Shown here piece after piece: positions 8,094 through 17,302 of a DNA stretch of 39,888 nucleotides (positions are counted from its first letter, which is position 1; each line of letters begins with the position of its first letter). The notes beneath the pieces are model-generated. The model made no database searches and had not been told where the DNA came from. It saw nothing but the letters and a program-made list of their open reading frames with translations. Source of the stretch: Bacteroidota bacterium (GTDB lineage: Bacteria > Bacteroidota > Bacteroidia > Bacteroidales > Prolixibacteraceae); NCBI GenBank assembly GCA_030698405.1, contig JAUYMU010000104.1, forward strand, positions 1 through 39,888, read 5' to 3'. Both the position numbers and the translations under genes were made by a program.

Positions 8094-8876
8094 ATGAAAA
8101 CTTCAATGATTATATCAGCATTCCTTCTGGCGTTTGCCGGATTGACAATTTCAATAAATGCTTCGGCTCAAATTGGTGTTGGGGCCAAATGTCCGAAAGG
8201 AGCAGTTTTGTATTTTGATGGGACTGCCGAAATGTTGCACAAGAACTGGGAATATTGGGAAGGTCCAAGGTTTTCGGCTGAAATGCCCATTAGATGGGAA
8301 ATTGTGGCTGATCCTGCCGGTTCCGGTTCGGCTGTTAGCAGCAACGATCCTGCTGCAGCAGGAGGCAAATACGGGGCGGCTGATATTGTCACGAAGCAAA
8401 AGTTCCGCGATTTCAGGCTGCATGTCGAGTTTCTTGTAGCGAACAAAGGTGGCAACAGCGGGGTTTATCTTCAGAACAGGTACGAAATCCAGATTCTCGA
8501 TGGCGATTCAACCGCACACGGATTGGCAGCAGTCATCAACGATGCGGCAGCGTCTTATTCAGCCTACAACGGAACCGGAAAATGGAATGCTTATGATATT
8601 GTGTTCAGGGCAGCCCGTTTTAAAGAAGGAAAACTTGTCGAAAATCCATTGGTCACCGTATATTTTAACGGCATAAAAGTTCATAAAAACCAACTCATTA
8701 AACAGGTTTATGGTGGCGTAAATTCAGGAATTGACGGCGGAAATGATGGGGGGAAAGGAATAACCGATACACCGGGAGGAATCAAATTGCAGGCCGAAGG
8801 TCATGAAGTGCTCTACCGCAATATCTGGGTAAAGGAAATCGAACTAAAAAAACAGGACACCGATGTGAAATTGTAA
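8094..8876 (+). CDS. DUF1080 (3-keto-disaccharide hydrolase-like) exported protein
   Basis: A 260-aa protein with a signal peptide (about residues 1-26, ending SASAQ). The rest is a single DUF1080 beta-jelly-roll domain, recognisable by the FDGT opening, KFRDFRLHVEF, the GGNSGVYLQNRYEIQILD block and the final FHEVLYRNIWVKE-like strand (here HEVLYRNIWVKE). Some members of this family hydrolyse 3-keto-glycosides, and many are annotated only as glycan-binding or unknown. ATG 8094 is chosen because it gives the signal peptide directly. A structured repeat stands 42 bases upstream. The reaction is inferred from family only. Confidence 0.85.
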   Translation: MKTSMIISAFLLAFAGLTISINASAQIGVGAKCPKGAVLYFDGTAEMLHKNWEYWEGPRFSAEMPIRWEIVADPAGSGSAVSSNDPAAAGGKYGAADIVTKQKFRDFRLHVEFLVANKGGNSGVYLQNRYEIQILDGDSTAHGLAAVINDAAASYSAYNGTGKWNAYDIVFRAARFKEGKLVENPLVTVYFNGIKVHKNQLIKQVYGGVNSGIDGGNDGGKGITDTPGGIKLQAEGHEVLYRNIWVKEIELKKQDTDVKL

Positions 8877-8990
8877 ACATTTATCTGCAAAGCTTGTTTC
8901 TAATTTTTGAATATGAAGTGATACACATTTTCTAATTTAAAGACTACTTTATCTTTTTATTAGCAATCCGAATAAAAATGTCTGTTTTAT

Positions 8991-9020
8991 TTTCATTTTA
9001 AAAAATAATGTTCATATTTG
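8991..9020 (+). promoter_or_regulatory. Candidate promoter of the leu leader
   Basis: CATATTTG (9013-9020) differs from the Bacteroidota -7 consensus TAnnTTTG at one position. A TTTC (8991-8994) lies 18 bases upstream as a weak -33. Transcription would begin near 9027, about 12 bases before the leader peptide ATG. The rest of 8877-8990 is AT-rich with no gene seen. Confidence 0.4.
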
Positions 9021-9038
9021 CAGCAAATTAATCAGAAA

Positions 9039-9110
9039 ATGACACGATTTAATAACATTTCCCTTCTAGGTCTCATTATCGGTATTCTCCTAATTTGGAT
9101 GCACGACTGA
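9039..9110 (+). CDS. Leu/Ile-rich leader peptide of the leu operon attenuator
   Basis: A 23-residue frame, ATG 9039 to TGA 9108-9110, contains the core LLGLIIGILLI. Five Leu and five Ile make up ten of 23 residues, and there is no Val. The content matches the end products of the operon behind it: leucine, and isoleucine if the second synthase makes citramalate. The stop codon overlaps an antiterminator strand and is followed 32 bases later by an intrinsic terminator, so ribosome position can decide the RNA fold. The peptide itself probably has no function beyond being translated. The frame is short, but composition, position and hairpins agree. Confidence 0.8.
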   Translation: MTRFNNISLLGLIIGILLIWMHD

Positions 9111-9155
9111 GAATGATATGGGTAAAACTATAAAGCTTAACAAAAAGCCATTCTC
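9084..9155 (+). promoter_or_regulatory. Attenuator pause/antiterminator segments (1:2 and 2:3)
   Basis: Segment 1, ATTCTC (9084-9089, Ile-Leu codons of the leader), can pair with GAGAAT (9109-9114). Segment 2, GAGAATG (9109-9115, overlapping the TGA stop), pairs perfectly over 7 bp with CATTCTC (9149-9155), which is the left arm of the terminator. A ribosome that finishes the leader would cover segment 2 and let the terminator form. A ribosome stalled at Leu or Ile codons would leave it free to form the antiterminator. The pairings are visible in the sequence; the mechanism is inferred from classical amino-acid attenuation. Confidence 0.7.
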
Positions 9156-9176
9156 AATAAAGGGGATGGCTTTTTT
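9142..9176 (+). terminator. Attenuator terminator before leuA
   Basis: AAAAAGCCATTCTC (9142-9155) pairs with GGGGATGGCTTTTTT (9162-9176), with two G-U pairs and a six-base loop, and ends in a run of six T. This is a strong intrinsic terminator between the leader peptide and leuA. Confidence 0.85.
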
Positions 9177-9180
9177 CATT

Positions 9181-9224
9181 AGCCCCCTCTAAATCTCCCC
9201 CAAGGGAGAGACTTAAAAAAGGCT
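9181..9224 (-). repeat. G/C-rich intergenic repeat, copy R1
   Basis: A C-rich arm, a small hairpin TCTCCC/GGGAGA (9194-9199, 9204-9209) and an outer AGCC/GGCT. On the minus strand it follows the pattern TTTAAG...CTCCC...GGGAG...GGGGGCT shared with copies R2 to R7. It forms a convergent inverted pair with R2 (9270-9310). Confidence 0.65.
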
Positions 9225-9269
9225 GAAATTAAACAAATTAAGAGGTTATATTGAAAAATCGTAATGCCT

Positions 9270-9310
9270 TTTAAAGCCCCCTCTTGTGGAGGGGGTTGGG
9301 GGAGGCTTCT
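9270..9310 (+). repeat. G/C-rich intergenic repeat, copy R2, before leuA
   Basis: CCCCCTC (9277-9283) pairs with GAGGGGG (9289-9295), followed by GGGGGAGGCTT ending at 9308, 16 bases before the leuA ATG. Together with R1 it makes an inverted pair around a 45-base spacer. Confidence 0.7.
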
Positions 9311-9323
9311 AAAAACAAATAAA

Positions 9324-10844
9324 ATGAGCGACAGATTGTACATTTTTGACACGACTTTGCGTGATGGTGAGCAGGTTCCGGGTTGTCAGTTGAACACCGT
9401 CGAGAAGATTGAGGTAGCAAGGGCTTTGGAAGAATTGGGCGTTGATGTGATCGAAGCCGGATTCCCCATTTCGAGCCCCGGCGATTTCAATTCAGTAGTT
9501 GAAATATCAAAAGCGGTTACATGGCCAACCATTTGTGCCCTTACCCGCGCAGTTGAAAAAGACATTGATGTGGCTGCCGAAGCACTCAAATTTGCCAGGA
9601 AAGGCCGCATCCACACAGGTATCGGAACTTCTTTTTATCACATTCATTACAAACTGAACTCCAATCAGGATGAAATTATTGAACGTGCCATCGCGGCGGT
9701 GAAATATGCCAAAAAGTATGTGGAGGACGTTGAGTTCTATGCTGAAGATGCCGGTCGTACCGAAAACGAATACCTTGCCCGTGTGGTTGAGGCGGTTATC
9801 AAAGCCGGTGCAACGGTGGTAAATATACCGGACACAACTGGATACACGATGCCGCACGAATTTGGCGCCAAAATCAAATACCTGATCGACAACGTGCCAA
9901 ACGTTCACAAGGCAATTTTATCGACCCATTGTCACAACGATTTGGGAATGGCTACCGCCAACAGTATTGCTGGAATCATGAACGGAGCACGTCAGGTGGA
10001 GGTTACCATGAACGGAATTGGCGAACGCGCCGGAAATACTTCCCTTGAAGAAGTGGTGATGATCCTGAAAAGCCGTTATGCGATTTTGAATATCGACACC
10101 AACATCAACACCAAAAATATTTACAAGACCAGCCGTTTGGTTTCGAACCTGATGAACATGCCGGTTCAGCCAAACAAAGCCATTGTAGGCCGCAACGCTT
10201 TCGCACATTCCTCCGGAATTCATCAGGACGGTGTGTTGAAAAACCGCGAAAACTACGAAATTATGGATCCTGCTGATGTGGGTATCAACGAATCGAGCAT
10301 CGTGCTGACTGCCCGTAGCGGACGTGCTGCATTGCGCCACCGTCTGGAATTAATGGGTTTCGAACTTGATAAGGAAAAACTGGACGAAGTTTACGATAAA
10401 TTTGTAAAACTGGCCGATAAGAAAAAAGACATCAAAGACGACGATGTAGCCGCGCTGTTGGGCGATGTAACCCAGAAAGAGCGCCGTGTGAAACTTGATT
10501 TCCTTCAGGTGGTTACCGGAAAAGGCTTGGTGCCGATTGCCAATGTCCGCCTGAATATAGCCGGTGAAATTCTGGATGCCACAGCTTCAGGAAACGGACC
10601 GGTTGACGCAGCGCTGAAAGCAGTGAAGAAAATCATTCACCGCAAAGTGGTGCTGGAAGAATTCCTGATTCAGGCAATTACCCATGGAAGCGACGATTTG
10701 GGAAAAGTGCACATGCAGGTGAAATTTGAAGACAACATTTTCCACGGATTTGGTGCCAACACTGACATCATCACCGCATCGGTTGAAGCCTTCCTGGACG
10801 CGATCAATAAAATTCCGGGCGGAACCAGAGCAAAGAGCGAGTAG
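9324..10844 (+). CDS. leuA: 2-isopropylmalate synthase LeuA
   Basis: Condenses acetyl-CoA with 2-oxoisovalerate, the first committed step of leucine synthesis. The 506-aa protein has the HMGL-like TIM barrel with DTTLRDGEQ near residue 10, the metal-binding HCHNDLG, and GNTSLEEVV. Its C-terminal LeuA regulatory/dimer domain (about 365-500) has the [12 protein letters not shown] segment that in the family carries leucine feedback inhibition. The length is normal. The open frame extends 20 codons upstream, but those codons lie in a G-rich repeat (R2), and the conserved N-terminus [11 protein letters not shown] fixes ATG 9324. It is the first structural gene behind the Leu/Ile attenuator, so transcription is probably controlled by charged tRNA-Leu/Ile levels. 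Confidence 0.95.
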
Positions 10845-11168: not shown

Positions 11169-12569
11169 ATGGAAGCAAAAACTTTATTCGACAAAATTTG
11201 GGATTCGCACGTGGTGAAAGAGGTGGAAGGCGGCCCAAGTGTTTTATACATCGATCTGCATTTAATTCACGAAGTAACCAGCCCGGTGGCATTTCTTGGA
11301 CTTGATAAACGTGGATTGAAAGTGCTTCGTCCGGAGAAAACTGTTGCCACTCCCGACCACAACGTTCCAACCATCGATCAGCACCTGAGTATCAAAGACG
11401 AAATGTCGCGCAATCAGGTTGAAATGCTGAAGAAAAATTGCGCCAATCATGGCATTGTTTATCATGGATTGGGAAGCGAGGGCCACGGAGTGGTTCATAT
11501 CATTGGTCCTGAAATGGGTTTAACCAAACCGGGAATGACCATCGTTTGCGGCGATAGCCATACTTCAACGCACGGCGCTTTCGGAGCAATCGCTTTTGGA
11601 ATAGGCACCAGCGAAGTTGAAATGGTATTCGCGAGTCAATGCGTTATGCAACCGAAACCAAAGAAAATGCGCATTTCGGTGAACGGTGAACTAAACAAAG
11701 GTGTAACTGCCAAAGACGTTGCCTTATACGTTATCGCTCAGATTTCAACTTCAGGAGGAACCGGACATTTTGTGGAATTTGCCGGAACAGCCATCGAAAG
11801 TTTATCGATGGAAGGCCGCATGACGCTTTGCAACATGAGCATCGAATGTGGTGCTCGTGGCGGAATGATTGCTCCTGACCAAACTACTTTCGAATACGTT
11901 AAAGGCCGTCAGTTTGCGCCAAAAGGCGCCGATTGGGATACCGCTTTGGCATACTGGAAAACGTTGAAATCGGATGATGGTGCTGTTTTCGATACTGAAT
12001 ATTTCTATGATGCAGCCAATATTGAGCCGATGATTACATTCGGAACCAATCCCGGAATGGGAATTGGCATTTCTCAATATGTGCCAAACAGCAATAAACT
12101 GACAGGAAGCGATAAGCTGACCTACGAAAAATCGCTGAAATACATGGGCTACGATCAGGGCGAAAAAATGATTGGCAAGAAAATCGACTATGTTTTCGTT
12201 GGAAGTTGCACCAATGGCCGGATTGAAGACTTTCGTGCTTTTGCCGGTTTTGTGAAAGGAAAGAAAAAAGCTGATAATGTGACTGCCTGGATTGTTCCCG
12301 GATCGCGTGCTGTTGAGAAACAAATTATTGCTGAAGGTTTGGTGGAAATCCTGAATGCTGCCGGTTTCGAGCTGCGTCAGCCCGGATGTTCAGCTTGTCT
12401 GGCAATGAACGACGATAAAATTCCTGAAGGAAAATATTCAGTTTCTACCTCGAACCGCAACTTCGAAGGCCGTCAGGGACCAGGCGCCCGCACATTGCTC
12501 GCCAGTCCGCTCACCGCCGCCGCTGCTGCCGTATCAGGAAGGATTACTGACCCGAGAGAGTTTCTTTAG
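11169..12569 (+). CDS. leuC: 3-isopropylmalate dehydratase large subunit LeuC
   Basis: Aconitase-family large subunit (466 aa) that, with LeuD, isomerises 2- to 3-isopropylmalate and, in the citramalate route, citramalate to methylmalate. The [4Fe-4S] ligands are visible: Cys347 in GSCTNGR, and Cys407 and Cys410 in [10 protein letters not shown]. The substrate-site motif [13 protein letters not shown] is at about 128-140. The length is normal. ATG 11169 starts right after an A-rich stretch downstream of repeat R3. It lies between leuA and leuD in the usual Bacteroidales order. Confidence 0.96.
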
Positions 12570-12830: not shown

Positions 12831-13442
12831 ATGAGTTACGATAAATTTACAACATTAACATCGCCGGCAGTTCCGCTGCCAATTGAAAATATTGATACTG
12901 ACCAGATTATTCCGGCCCGATTCCTGAAAGCCGTTGAACGCAAAGGTTTTGGCGATAATCTTTTCCGCGACTGGCGTTACGATAAAAGCAACCAGCCAAT
13001 TGCCGATTTTCCGCTGAATCAATCGAAATATTCAGGAAAAATACTGGTTGGAGGTAAAAACTTCGGAAGTGGTTCGAGCCGCGAACACGCAACCTGGGCA
13101 GTATATGACTATGGTTTCCGCGTGGTGGTGTCGAGCTTTTTTGCCGATATTTTTCAGGGAAATGCCCTGAACAGTGGCATCCTTCCTGTGGTGGTTTCTC
13201 CTGAATTTCTAGAGAAAATATTTGCCACCATCGAAGTAGATAACAATTCACAGTTTGAGGTTGATCTTCAGAATCAGAAATTCACCATTAAAGCAACCGG
13301 CGAATCGGCTGATTTTACAATCAACCCATACAAAAAACATTGTTTGGCAAACGGGCTCGATGATATCGACTATTTGGTAGATATGAAAGAAGAGATCGCT
13401 GCGTTTGAGGCCTCCCCCCATCCCTCCTTCAGAGGGGCTTAA
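12831..13442 (+). CDS. leuD: 3-isopropylmalate dehydratase small subunit LeuD
   Basis: Swivel-domain small subunit (203 aa) partnering LeuC. The family motif [18 protein letters not shown] is clear at about residues 79-96, with [13 protein letters not shown] near 22-34. The last ten residues ([10 protein letters not shown]) are encoded by G-rich repeat R4, which also supplies the TAA stop. The natural end was probably near [10 protein letters not shown]. The extension is short and beyond the folded domain, so activity is likely retained. The start ATG 12831 is preceded by repeat Q1. Confidence 0.95.
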
Positions 13443-13485: not shown

Positions 13486-13523
13486 TTTTTAAGCCCCTCC
13501 CTGTGGAGGGGTTGGGGAGGCTG
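13486..13523 (+). repeat. G/C-rich intergenic repeat, copy R5, before the citramalate-synthase-like gene
   Basis: CCCCTCC (13494-13500) pairs with GGAGGGG (13505-13511), followed by TTGGGGAGGCT ending at 13522, 17 bases before ATG 13539. It is the inverted partner of R4. Confidence 0.7.
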
Positions 13524-13538
13524 TTTAAATTAATTTCT

Positions 13539-15077
13539 ATGACAGGAAAAGTAGTGGAAGTAAAAGATCAGATGCTTAGTATAATGGATACTACGCTGAG
13601 GGATGGTGAACAAACCTCGGGAGTATCGTTTACCGATAAGGAGAAACTGAGCGTTGCAAGGATTCTTCTGGAAGATGTAAAAGTAGATCGTATCGAAATT
13701 GCTTCGGCCAGGGTTTCGGAGGGAGAATTCGCTGCTGCCAAAAGGGTAATGGAATGGGCGAAAGAAAAAGGACGTTTGCACCAGGTCGAAATACTCGGTT
13801 TTGTTGACGGAAAAATTTCACTCGACTGGATCAATTCTGCCGGTGGAAAAGTCCTCAACCTGCTTTGCAAAGGTTCGTACAAACACGTTACCCAGCAACT
13901 GCGCAAAACTCCGGAACAGCATATTGAGGACATCAAAAAATCGATTGCTTATGCCGATGAACTTGGAATACGGGTAAATGTTTATCTGGAAGATTGGTCG
14001 AACGGGATGCGCAACTCTAAAGATTACGTGCATTTTATGGTTGGCGAACTGCTGAAATTGCATATCGACCGCATCATGTTGCCCGATACACTTGGTATTC
14101 TCGATCCGGATGAAACCTACGATTACTGCAAGGAAATGATCGAAACTTTTCCTGAAGCGCGTTTCGATTTTCATGCGCACAACGATTACGATCTGGCTGT
14201 TGGCAATGTCTATCATGCGATCAAGGCTGGTATCCGCTGTGTGCACACAACTGTCAATGGACTGGGAGAACGTGCAGGAAATGCACCACTTTCGAGCGTG
14301 ATTGCAACTGTGAAAGATCACCTGAAAATGCAAACGCTGGTCAACGAAACGATGCTGAACAAAGTCTCACGTTTGGTCGAATCTTTCTCCGGAATTCGTA
14401 TTCCGACCAATAAACCGCTCATCGGTGAATTTGTGTTTACCCAATGTAGCGGAATCCATGCCGATGGCGACAGCAAGAATAACCTGTATTTCAACGATCT
14501 GCTTCCTGAACGCTTTGGCCGTACCCGTGTTTACGCGCTTGGTAAAACTTCAGGAAAAGCAAATATTAAAAACAACCTTGAAGAACTCGGAATTGAACTT
14601 GATCCTGCATCTCTGAAACTGGTTACCGATCGGATCATTGAACTTGGCGACCGCAAAGAAACAGTCACCATTCAGGATCTTCCGTACATTGTTGCCGATG
14701 TGCTGAACGAAGAAAATACCGTGTCGAAAATTAAGCTGGTTAACTACTCTTTGTCACATGCAATGGGATTAAAGCCAACAGCAACAGTCAGTATCATTGT
14801 AAACGACAGTCAGTTTGAAGCAACAGCCGCCGGTGATGGGCAATACGATGCATTTATGAATGCCATTAAATCTATTTACAAGGAAGTTGGCAAAACGCTT
14901 CCGAAGCTGGTTGATTATTCGGTTTCAATTCCTCCGGGCGGAAAAACCGATGCTTTGGTCGAAACGCTCATTACCTGGGAATTGGACCGCGAATTTAAAA
15001 CGCGCGGACTCGACTCCGACCAAACTGCTGCAGCCATCAAAGCAACCTTCAGGATGTTGAATAATCTGGAAAACTAA
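13539..15077 (+). CDS. Citramalate synthase-like / second 2-isopropylmalate synthase-family enzyme
   Basis: A 512-aa HMGL-like TIM-barrel acyltransferase with [14 protein letters not shown] near the N-terminus, the HAHNDYDLAVGN metal/catalytic segment, NGLGERAGNAPL and a C-terminal LeuA-type regulatory domain (ATAAGDGQYDAF). It differs clearly from LeuA upstream. Within the family the HAHNDYDLA-type site and this operon position fit (R)-citramalate synthase, which feeds isoleucine synthesis from pyruvate and acetyl-CoA and then uses LeuCD and LeuB. Isopropylmalate or even homocitrate-type activity cannot be excluded from sequence. GTG 13503 would give a longer frame made of repeat R5, so ATG 13539 is chosen. 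The Ile codons of the operon leader support a role in isoleucine supply. Confidence 0.85.
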   Translation: MTGKVVEVKDQMLSIMDTTLRDGEQTSGVSFTDKEKLSVARILLEDVKVDRIEIASARVSEGEFAAAKRVMEWAKEKGRLHQVEILGFVDGKISLDWINSAGGKVLNLLCKGSYKHVTQQLRKTPEQHIEDIKKSIAYADELGIRVNVYLEDWSNGMRNSKDYVHFMVGELLKLHIDRIMLPDTLGILDPDETYDYCKEMIETFPEARFDFHAHNDYDLAVGNVYHAIKAGIRCVHTTVNGLGERAGNAPLSSVIATVKDHLKMQTLVNETMLNKVSRLVESFSGIRIPTNKPLIGEFVFTQCSGIHADGDSKNNLYFNDLLPERFGRTRVYALGKTSGKANIKNNLEELGIELDPASLKLVTDRIIELGDRKETVTIQDLPYIVADVLNEENTVSKIKLVNYSLSHAMGLKPTATVSIIVNDSQFEATAAGDGQYDAFMNAIKSIYKEVGKTLPKLVDYSVSIPPGGKTDALVETLITWELDREFKTRGLDSDQTAAAIKATFRMLNNLEN

Positions 15078-15291: not shown

Positions 15292-16026
15292 ATGATTCCA
15301 CAACCTACAAAATCAACTCCTGAAGCCATTCGTGAGAACTTCGACCAACAGGTTGAACGGTTTTCCAATATTGAAACAGGTCAGTCAACCGCCATTGATT
15401 CGCCATTGTGCATGGAACTGGTTGCACGGTCGGCTGCTTTGCTCAATCCTGATGCCCGACGGGTAATGGATTTAGGTTGTGGCGGCGGAAATTATGCGGT
15501 TAAAGTAACTTCGTTTCTTCCTGAAGTAGATTGCACCTTGATCGACCTAAGCGCGAATATGCTGGCCAAAGCAGAAGACCGGGTTCGTGGAAACATTACC
15601 GGAACTGTAACTACAATTCAGGGTGATTACCGCGACATTGATCTTGGAGAGAGCCTTTACGATGTGATTACCGCCGGTACCACACTCCACCATTTACGCG
15701 AAGACCAGGAATGGGAATCGGTTTTCGGCAAAGTATATAAAGCCCTGAAAACTGGCGGAACATTCTGGATCAACGACATTGTAATCAGCGAAACTGAAGA
15801 AATCAGTCAGTTGATGATGGACGGATGGCTCAGTATATTGCAAAAGCAAATTACTCCTGAAGAAATTGAAATGTACATGGGGCGTTACGAGTCGGAAGAC
15901 ACACCGCGAACATTGAGTTATCAACTGGACTTAATGAAACAAGTCGGATTTTCAGAAACAATGGTTTTGCACAAACATTTTAACTTTGCCGCATTTGGAG
16001 CCAGGAAAGAAAAAAGCCTCCCCTAA
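15292..16026 (+). CDS. Class I SAM-dependent methyltransferase
   Basis: A 244-aa Rossmann-fold methyltransferase. SAM-binding motif I is VMDLGCGGGNYA, the acidic loop is TLIDLSANML, and motif IV-like DVITAGTTLHHL and TGGTFWINDI follow. The substrate is not evident. It sits between the citramalate-synthase-like gene and leuB on the same strand, so it is probably co-transcribed with leucine synthesis. Yeast Tmt1, an unrelated-context methyltransferase, methylates 3-isopropylmalate, so an organic-acid substrate is a conjecture. The stop codon and the last residues (KSLP) fall in G-rich repeat R6. ATG 15292 follows repeat Q2 by about 35 bases. Confidence 0.8.
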   Translation: MIPQPTKSTPEAIRENFDQQVERFSNIETGQSTAIDSPLCMELVARSAALLNPDARRVMDLGCGGGNYAVKVTSFLPEVDCTLIDLSANMLAKAEDRVRGNITGTVTTIQGDYRDIDLGESLYDVITAGTTLHHLREDQEWESVFGKVYKALKTGGTFWINDIVISETEEISQLMMDGWLSILQKQITPEEIEMYMGRYESEDTPRTLSYQLDLMKQVGFSETMVLHKHFNFAAFGARKEKSLP

Positions 16027-16054: not shown

Positions 16055-16181
16055 GTGCTTCGAATAAAGGTCTTTGTTTTCTTAATTCTTTGCCCGAATT
16101 TACTTCGTCACAATGAAATTTGGTGGCAAGGGAATTTTGAAGCGTTAATAGATGAAAATAAAACGAAAAATGAACGCCTGA

Positions 16182-16229
16182 TTTTTAAGCCTCCCCCCTG
16201 TGGGGGAGGTTTGGAGGGGGCTTTAAAAA
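16182..16229 (+). repeat. G/C-rich intergenic repeat, copy R7, before leuB
   Basis: CCTCCCCC (16190-16197) pairs perfectly with GGGGGAGG (16202-16209), followed by TTTGGAGGGGGCTTT ending near 16224, 14 bases before the leuB ATG. It is the inverted partner of R6. Confidence 0.7.
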
Positions 16230-16237
16230 CCAAAAAT

Positions 16238-17302
16238 ATGAAACTAAAATTAGCCATTCTTCCCGGCGACGGGATCGGTCCTGAGATTATCGATCAGGCC
16301 ATGAAAGTAGTAAAGGCGGTAGCCGCCAAATTTAACCACGAACTGGAATACGAATTCGCATTAACCGGTGCATGTGCCATTGATGAATTTGGCGCTCCGT
16401 ATCCCGATTCTACCCACGAACTGTGTATGCAGGCAGATGCCGTATTGTTTGGCGCCATTGGCGACCCGAAATACGACAACAATCCGAAAGCGACCGTTCG
16501 TCCTGAACAAGGTTTGCTGCTGATGCGTAAAAAACTGGGTTTGTATGCCAACATTCGCCCGGTAGTAACTTTCCCATCGTTGTTGCACAAGTCACCGCTT
16601 CGTCGCGAACTGATTGAAGGCGCTGACTTTGTGGCCATCCGCGAACTGACCGGAGGTATCTATTTTGGAGAAAAAGGCCGCAAAGATGATGGTAACACCG
16701 CATTTGACGTTTGTGTTTATACCCGCATGGAAGTGGAACGTATCCTGAAACTGGCTTACGAATATGCCATGAAACGCAACAAAAAACTGACAGTTGTCGA
16801 CAAAGCCAATGTATTGGAAAGTTCACGCCTGTGGAGAGAAATTGCACAGGAAATGGCGCCGACTTATCCTGAGGTAACAACAGAATACATGTTTGTGGAC
16901 AACGCCGCAATGCAGATCATTCAGTGGCCGAAAAACTTTGACGTAATGGTTACCGAAAACATGTTCGGCGATATCCTGACCGACGAAGCTTCGGTAATTA
17001 CCGGCTCGCTTGGATTATCTCCATCAGCTTCTATCGGAATTCATACATCGGTGTTCGAGCCTATTCACGGTTCGTATCCACAGGCTGCCTGTAAAAATAT
17101 TGCCAACCCGGTGGCAACCATTTTGTCGGCTGCCATGATGTTCGAATATGCTTTCGATCTTCAGGCTGAAGGCGCCATCATCCGCAAAGCAGTGGATGCT
17201 TCACTGGATGCCAAAGTGGTAACCATTGATATTGCCGAGGAAAAAGCATATTCTACTTCGGAAGTAGGCGACTGGATTGCCGACTGGGTGGCTAAAAACT
17301 AA
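16238..17302 (+). CDS. leuB: 3-isopropylmalate dehydrogenase LeuB
   Basis: NAD-dependent oxidative decarboxylase giving 2-oxoisocaproate, and 2-oxobutyrate from methylmalate in the citramalate route. The 354-aa protein shows GDGIGPEI at the N-terminus, [27 protein letters not shown] and the metal-site segment [20 protein letters not shown]. The NAD site [24 protein letters not shown] follows. Upstream in-frame codons from 16055 pass through repeat R7 and are not conserved-looking, so ATG 16238 at [14 protein letters not shown] is the start. It is the last gene of the operon, with a structured element and a possible terminator behind it. Confidence 0.95.

Follow-up and report, generated by a model that had tools for sequence, protein, structure and literature searches.

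A predicted leucine- and isoleucine-sensing attenuator in front of leuA in Bacteroidales

The leuA-leuC-leuD-cimA-leuB operon of a Prolixibacteraceae bacterium is very probably preceded by a classical ribosome-mediated attenuator, predicted from its sequence, that would read the supply of both leucine and isoleucine. The operon lies in a 39,888-nucleotide stretch of DNA (hereafter the window; positions below refer to it), whose relevant features are collected in Table 1. We favor an attenuator because of the conservation of the arrangement, the counts in shuffled and control regions, the pairing of each strand 2 with its own partner, a scan of ribosome positions, the spacing between sensor codons and strand 2, the codon bias, and the leaders matched to other amino-acid operons.

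Table 1. Coordinates of the leuA leader region and of the operon behind it in the window.
Feature	Positions	Strand	Basis or remark
Imperfect inverted repeat CTTTTTATT-N9-AATAAAAAT, 5' of the promoter; possible operator or UP element	8953..8979	+	Same-genus comparison
Probable -7 promoter element CATATTTG	9013..9020	+	TATTTGCA at the same place in 12 same-genus loci
Leader peptide frame MTRFNNISLLGLIIGILLIWMHD, 23 codons	9039..9110	+	ATG 9039-9041, stop TGA 9108-9110; kept in 12/12 same-genus loci
Strand 1, TCTCA; partner 9108-9112 in the best 1:2 fold	9071..9075	+	Folding
Strand 2, GAGAATG; starts within the stop codon	9109..9115	+	Sequence, folding
Small hairpin, 5 pairs, enclosed by the antiterminator	9117..9132	+	Folding
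Terminator left arm; strand 3 = 9149-9155	9142..9155	+	Folding
Terminator right arm (strand 4, 9162-9175) and T run 9171-9176	9162..9176	+	Sequence, folding
leuA, 2-isopropylmalate synthase	9324..10844	+	Pfam HMGL-like, HCS_D2, LeuA_dimer
leuC	11169..12569	+	Pfam Aconitase
leuD	12831..13442	+	Pfam Aconitase_C
Second LeuA-type synthase, probably citramalate synthase (cimA-like)	13503..15077	+	Pfam HMGL-like, LeuA_dimer
Methyltransferase gene, between second synthase and leuB	15292..16026		Pfam Methyltransf_25
leuB	16055..17302	+	Pfam Iso_dh

A sequence-only reading of the window had named the leader frame and its stop codon, the segments GAGAATG (9109-9115), CATTCTC (9149-9155) and ATTCTC (9084-9089), and the six T at 9171-9176, all of which are present as described. 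The leader peptide holds five leucines and five isoleucines among its 23 residues; that reading had counted all ten within the string LLGLIIGILLI, which does contain the five leucines, while it has four isoleucines, the fifth being residue 7. The terminator comprises 14 pairs (9142-9155 with 9162-9175; -18.2 kcal/mol and z -5.5 when folded alone), and strand 3, the inner half of its left arm, is fully complementary to strand 2. In the alternative fold, the antiterminator (9109-9155; -13.0 kcal/mol, z -4.4) encloses two small hairpins; at the site of the one at 9117-9132, a locus of the same genus (L011) carries TATGG...CCATA. Since the terminator is the more stable of the two structures, switching between them must be kinetic. 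Folding of the whole of 9027-9180, which had been proposed as a check, gave -36.3 kcal/mol (z -4.06), a value equalled by none of 200 shuffles. A 1:2 fold can also form (-13.0 kcal/mol, z -2.7, matched by 2 of 200 shuffles), with an outer stem other than the one first suggested: the best fold uses TCTCA (9071-9075) and TGAGA (9108-9112) in place of ATTCTC at 9084-9089.

The leader region thus has the parts of a classical attenuator: a frame, predicted to be translated, that is rich in codons for products of the operon; a conserved intrinsic terminator between leader and leuA; an antiterminator that by computation, including the own-partner test described below, excludes the terminator; and a stop codon placed to mask strand 2, which the sensor codons precede by roughly half the width of a ribosome. 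When leucine and isoleucine are plentiful, the ribosome would reach the stop codon and cover strand 2, so that the terminator would halt the polymerase ahead of leuA. If charged Leu-tRNA (mainly the reader of CTA and CTC) or Ile-tRNA runs short, the ribosome would stall in the Leu/Ile block. Strand 2, 16 nt downstream of the start of the last Leu/Ile codon (9093-9095), should stay free during the stall, pair with strand 3 as this emerges, and let the polymerase continue into leuA. Without translation, the 1:2 fold could form first, which would favor termination in the group of leaders to which the window belongs. Translation, stalling and termination would all have to take place in the cell as outlined here.

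Transcription of the leader probably starts near 9026, as judged from the probable -7 element (ATATTTGC; Bacteroidota promoter consensus TAnnTTTG). The inverted repeat 5' of the promoter is present, with at most two mismatches, at 9 of the 12 same-genus leuA loci, the others being L009, L010 and L011, and its pattern was not found at the ilvD, hisG and trpE loci of the same genome. Between the terminator and leuA (9177-9323) lie two G/C-rich short repeats. This stretch has 34 matches in its own genome, itself included, which marks these as dispersed repeats 3' of the attenuator; they are absent at this place in some congeners (e.g. L005 and L008).

The genes of the operon, named after their Pfam families, follow in the order leuA, leuC, leuD, second LeuA-type synthase, methyltransferase and leuB. 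Conservation in relatives places the start of leuA at 9324, and not at the in-frame ATG at 9264. The second synthase is 31% identical to LeuA, and its substrate is presumed to be that of a citramalate synthase.

To follow the leader beyond the window, LeuA was searched in 20 relatives and the genome itself, in 198 genomes of the order, and in named genomes. The upstream regions collected number 162: a same-genus set of 12 loci including the window (among 12 congeners, G002 yielded no leuA and G007 yielded it in two pieces), 71 genomes of the order with LeuA at E<=1e-200, the window's own included, and the best 80 matches among named genomes. The window counts in both the same-genus and the order set, and the loci are not independent, as 12 come from one genus and the named and unnamed sets may share species. 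Under a strict test (within 420 nt, a terminator of -9 kcal/mol or lower plus a frame that starts with ATG, spans 12-40 codons and has seven or more Leu+Ile residues, these making up at least 33%), 70 of the 162 regions pass, compared to 3 of 972 dinucleotide shuffles. The same test was passed by none of 381 regions upstream of other frames. These frames had at least 150 codons and were taken from either strand of the window and of the 80 named loci; operon-internal and spurious ones are among them. By set, strict passes amount to 12/12 same-genus loci, 31/71 order genomes and 28/80 of the best-matching named loci. With the Leu+Ile threshold lowered to 25%, they rise to 12, 35 and 37 of the best 80, respectively, or 83/162 overall against 9/972 shuffles.

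A terminator with a short frame was not found within 420 nt of leuA at 65 of the 162 loci, which include 29 of the 71 order genomes; at several of these another frame ends 12-50 nt before leuA, so that a leader could sit farther upstream. Outside the order, where leuA may be operon-internal, none of 27 leuA loci passes the strict test (179 genomes gave a match, members of the order included), and the sole relaxed pass (L192, 10 Leu/Ile of 32 residues) has a 2:3 pairing of merely -2.4 kcal/mol. Within the genus, the comparison with relatives called for by the sequence-only reading bears it out in peptide content, terminator, 2:3 pairing and spacing, and beyond the genus the same features recur with different letters in many families of the order. 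The nearest named relative among the matches listed is a Prolixibacteraceae genome. One locus labelled Odoribacter sp. (L059) encodes a LeuA 93% identical to that of the window behind a leader of the genus type, and is perhaps a mislabelled bin.

The 2:3 pairing is kept while its letters change. In the group of the window, strand 2 is GAGAATGG and strand 3 is CCATTCTC; leaders such as those of Bacteroides and Phocaeicola have GGAAGTGAG and CTCACTTCC, and further combinations are GAGAGAAAGG/CCTTTCTCTC, GAGTGCGG/TCGCACTC, AGGGGGTT/AGCCCCCT and GAAGCGGG/CTCGCTTC. Because best pairs were selected here, a fair test exchanges the partners. Over the 83 leaders, the own 2:3 duplex averages -12.08 kcal/mol, compared to -7.04 with permuted strand 3 (sd 0.37, lowest of 5000 -8.52). 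With leader types kept apart (78 leaders in nine coarse types, one of which holds 63 of the 78), own pairing averages -12.41 kcal/mol versus -5.20 across types; the own partner beats the cross-type mean in 74/78 leaders and every cross-type partner in 54/78, and none of 5000 type-level permutations is as low. When the left arm alone is used (83 leaders), the values are -7.75 for own and -5.20 for permuted partners (sd 0.29, lowest of 2000 -6.26), and the own strand 3 is the top partner in just 5/83 because related leaders share arms. The 78-leader tests, here and for the 1:2 fold and codon choice, omit five leaders dropped by eye for an implausible frame or pairing (L054, L092, L118, L144 and L159), a choice that favors the attenuator reading; the spacing and partner tests were repeated on all 83.

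Alignment within types adds less. For the leader type of the window (22 of the 24 leaders listed, L141 and L039 being left out), the 2:3 pairs hardly vary (98.8% paired): changes are to G-U on one side only and no pair is doubly changed, so that pairwise covariation is uninformative; the window itself lacks, through A at 9116, one 2:3 pair found in most congeners. In the Bacteroides type (20 of 33 leaders listed, picked for a strand 2 inside the last codons), 92.9% of 2:3 positions are paired, a level reached by none of 500 shuffles, and the one doubly changed pair is no excess over shuffles (200/500). The 3:4 pairing of this type is kept at 98.7%, and double changes affect three pairs, in seven cells (0/500 shuffles for cells). 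In Bacteroides-type leaders such as L048, L070, L076, L104 and L123, strand 2 falls within the final codons GGA AGT GAG (peptide ...GSE...) and not at the stop codon, which makes for a second layout of the same device.

The position of the Leu and Ile codons relative to strand 2 favors the attenuator reading. We placed a ribosome on each of the 1910 codons of the 83 leaders and folded the RNA as it stands prior to the synthesis of strand 4. Where 2:3 can form (P>=0.5), 54% of the codons are Leu or Ile, compared to 10% elsewhere; for Val the shares are 0.3% and 7.5%, respectively. The last Leu/Ile codon starts 12-18 nt before strand 2 in 65/83 leaders, compared to 16% when strand 2 is placed at random within the same search range, and the median distance from the start of this codon to strand 2 is 15 nt (quartiles 14 and 18). 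Roughly this distance separates the A-site codon from the leading edge of the ribosome. Codon choice is skewed as well: CTA and CTC supply 32% and 21% of the Leu codons in 78 leaders but 1.9% and 11.5% in the leuA genes behind them, and their joint share is greater in the leader than in leuA at 61 of 66 loci with enough leuA sequence. The leaders were selected for Leu+Ile content, so their total share of these residues is no evidence, while position, spacing and codon choice are.

The sequence-only reading had proposed 1:2, 2:3 and 3:4 folds. A 1:2 fold is present in most leaders of the window's group and missing in the Bacteroides-type leaders examined, and a general three-state model was dropped except for the window's group. 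Across 78 leaders, 1:2 pairing lies weakly above that of synonymous recodings (mean z -0.43, Wilcoxon p 0.014), a null that uses the codon usage of the window, so that the CTA/CTC preference of the leaders may itself raise the pairing. Individual z values in the genus are -1.6 for the window (L001), -1.2 (L003), -1.9 (L004), -2.5 (L006), -2.4 (L011) and +0.3 (L002); in other families they range through -3.1 (L013), -2.5 (L158), -1.5 (L016), -0.7 (L162), -0.4 (L076), +0.5 (L087) and +0.8 (L012 and L048).

The attenuator might instead sense leucine only, the Ile codons being hydrophobic filler or tolerated neighbors of the Leu codons, but we consider this unlikely. Isoleucine accounts for 20% of residues and valine for 2% in the 78 leaders, selected as they were for Leu+Ile, and Ile codons cluster at the positions that allow 2:3 (26% versus 5% elsewhere in the ribosome scan). 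Their identity speaks more for the leucine-only alternative, as 79% of the 360 leader Ile codons are ATT, which is also the commonest Ile codon in the genes of the window (55%), whereas rare codons are used for Leu. Which genes the operons contain bears on the same question. At the 39 leader loci with a linked cimA-like gene, from 22 families, every leader has at least two Ile. Two genomes in which cimA was not matched at E 1e-60 (G020 and G037) have no Ile in the leader, and in one family without linked cimA the leaders have none (G176) or two of ten Leu+Ile (G070). The exception is family f5 (G016 and G135), which retains five and four Ile codons although cimA lies elsewhere, as the leucine-only alternative would allow. 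Counted by family, Ile is few or absent in 3/4 families without linked cimA versus 0/22 with it (hypergeometric 0.0015), a post hoc figure from few families, since both the idea and the cut-off (Ile/(Ile+Leu) of 0.2) were set after seeing the leaders and the linked and unlinked classes were assigned by hand from gene positions. This count sets aside three leaders with implausible frames (L147, linked; L054 and L157, unlinked) and three genomes made undecidable by contig ends (G008, G023 and G067), as well as the 80 named loci, whose 3-kb flanks can end too early for cimA; with the doubtful L054 (four Ile) included, it becomes 3/5 versus 0/22 families (0.003). The earlier expectation that Leu and Ile codons match an operon with leuA and a citramalate-type synthase is supported by few families, and one family is an exception.

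Leaders of matching content precede other amino-acid operons in the relatives set. Val-rich leaders such as MKNISIISLVIVSVVVLLRAR stand before ilvD at 15/17 loci (21 genomes; 17 of 22 matches used, the best per genome, with one of the two remaining loci cut by a contig end), His leaders such as MNNTITHYGHHHVILSAGRQ before hisG at 14/15, and leaders with at least two Trp, mostly WWW or WLPWW, before trpE at 14/15. For thrA, a short frame with a terminator was not found upstream in the five genomes examined (5 of 21 matches). In the genome of the window, ilvD (L209) has a Val/Ile/Leu leader, a terminator and a 2:3 candidate of -6.3 kcal/mol, and hisG (L232) a His leader, a terminator and a 2:3 candidate of -8.8 kcal/mol. 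Its trpE (L245, G000:C69) has tandem Trp leader and terminator units, MIQNTNTIWLPWWGLLSKK and MKNIWWWHRNFSQYRGRK, with T runs 291 nt and 144 nt before trpE, respectively. The same tandem pair occurs in G010 and G008, and another pair in G018. In the second unit, 2:3 pairing against the left arm of the terminator reaches just -1.6 kcal/mol, so the switch there must be laid out differently.

These leaders also bear on whether the frame could encode a functional small membrane peptide, followed by an ordinary constitutive terminator of the upstream transcript. The leader peptide is strongly hydrophobic and resembles a single membrane helix, but its letters diverge across loci while codon choice and the spacing to strand 2 persist, and His and Trp leaders occupy the same place before hisG and trpE. 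Moreover, in congeners G001 and G003 the gene upstream of the leader points away from leuA, with no intervening frame of at least 60 aa, and so cannot own the terminator. We regard such a peptide as highly improbable. We see equally little chance that a ligand- or protein-binding RNA switch drives the terminator, the short frame being incidental. The conserved inverted repeat 5' of the promoter and the small hairpin between strands 2 and 3 could be parts of such a switch, but both the bias toward rare codons and the distance between codons and strand 2 make sense only with translation. In addition, no Rfam family other than rRNA reaches its threshold at 20 leuA loci, and all 14 Rfam 15 hits in 8500-9700 of the window lie under the gathering threshold; the families covered include the leucine leader and the T-box. 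The sub-threshold hits, among them Phe_leader, Thr_leader, PyrR on the minus strand and Prevotella-2, were taken as chance.

The attenuator reading would extend classical amino-acid attenuation to the leucine operon in many families of an order that includes human gut bacteria. It offers predictions of the amino acid sensed at each operon and of the codons that matter, and the way in which leader codons vary with the genes of the operon amounts to a natural experiment. Short RNAs ending before leuA, ilvD, hisG or trpE in Bacteroidales transcriptomes could be attenuated leaders. We tentatively suggest, as a conjecture with slightly less than even prospects, that the Bacteroidales leader is a running record of the products of its operon, in which Ile is kept when cimA is in the leu operon and tends to be lost otherwise, hence a two-input Leu/Ile sensor, and that Bacteroidales control branched-chain, His and Trp synthesis mainly by attenuation and not by a repressor.

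Leader-peptide attenuation is textbook knowledge in Proteobacteria. We found no report of a leuA attenuator in Bacteroidales in the open-access literature; cases in this phylum may already have been predicted by Lopatovskaya et al. (2010). According to a 2010 account, except for the erm leader no case of attenuation had been demonstrated beyond Proteobacteria and Actinobacteria, and new ones were presented in Firmicutes (PMC2965389). A transcriptome of B. thetaiotaomicron contains short frames described as reminiscent of leader peptides (PMC7366714). In the same phylum, a 2021 study of Flavobacterium psychrophilum describes hints of leader-peptide attenuation in front of amino-acid operons. 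It lists conserved 5' elements, those of pheA and hisG included, without calling these two leader peptides, and leuA and ilv are not among the candidates in its main text (PMC9723704). What seems new here is the spread across the order, the Leu+Ile content along with cimA, and the codon bias.

The leuL leaders of Escherichia coli and Salmonella precede leuA with a mutually exclusive antiterminator and terminator, as here. The likeness extends to a leader peptide with Leu codons in which CUA is preferred, and in the Salmonella leu attenuator replacement of CUA by CUG lowered sensitivity (PMC1183508). Unlike leuL, the leader described here combines Leu with Ile codons before an operon with a second LeuA-type synthase, has no Rfam match, and lacks a general 1:2 fold. 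The ilvGMEDA and ilvBN leaders of Gammaproteobacteria are multivalent and respond to several branched-chain amino acids, Val included. In contrast, the leuA leader here does without Val, which abounds in the ilvD leader of the same genus.
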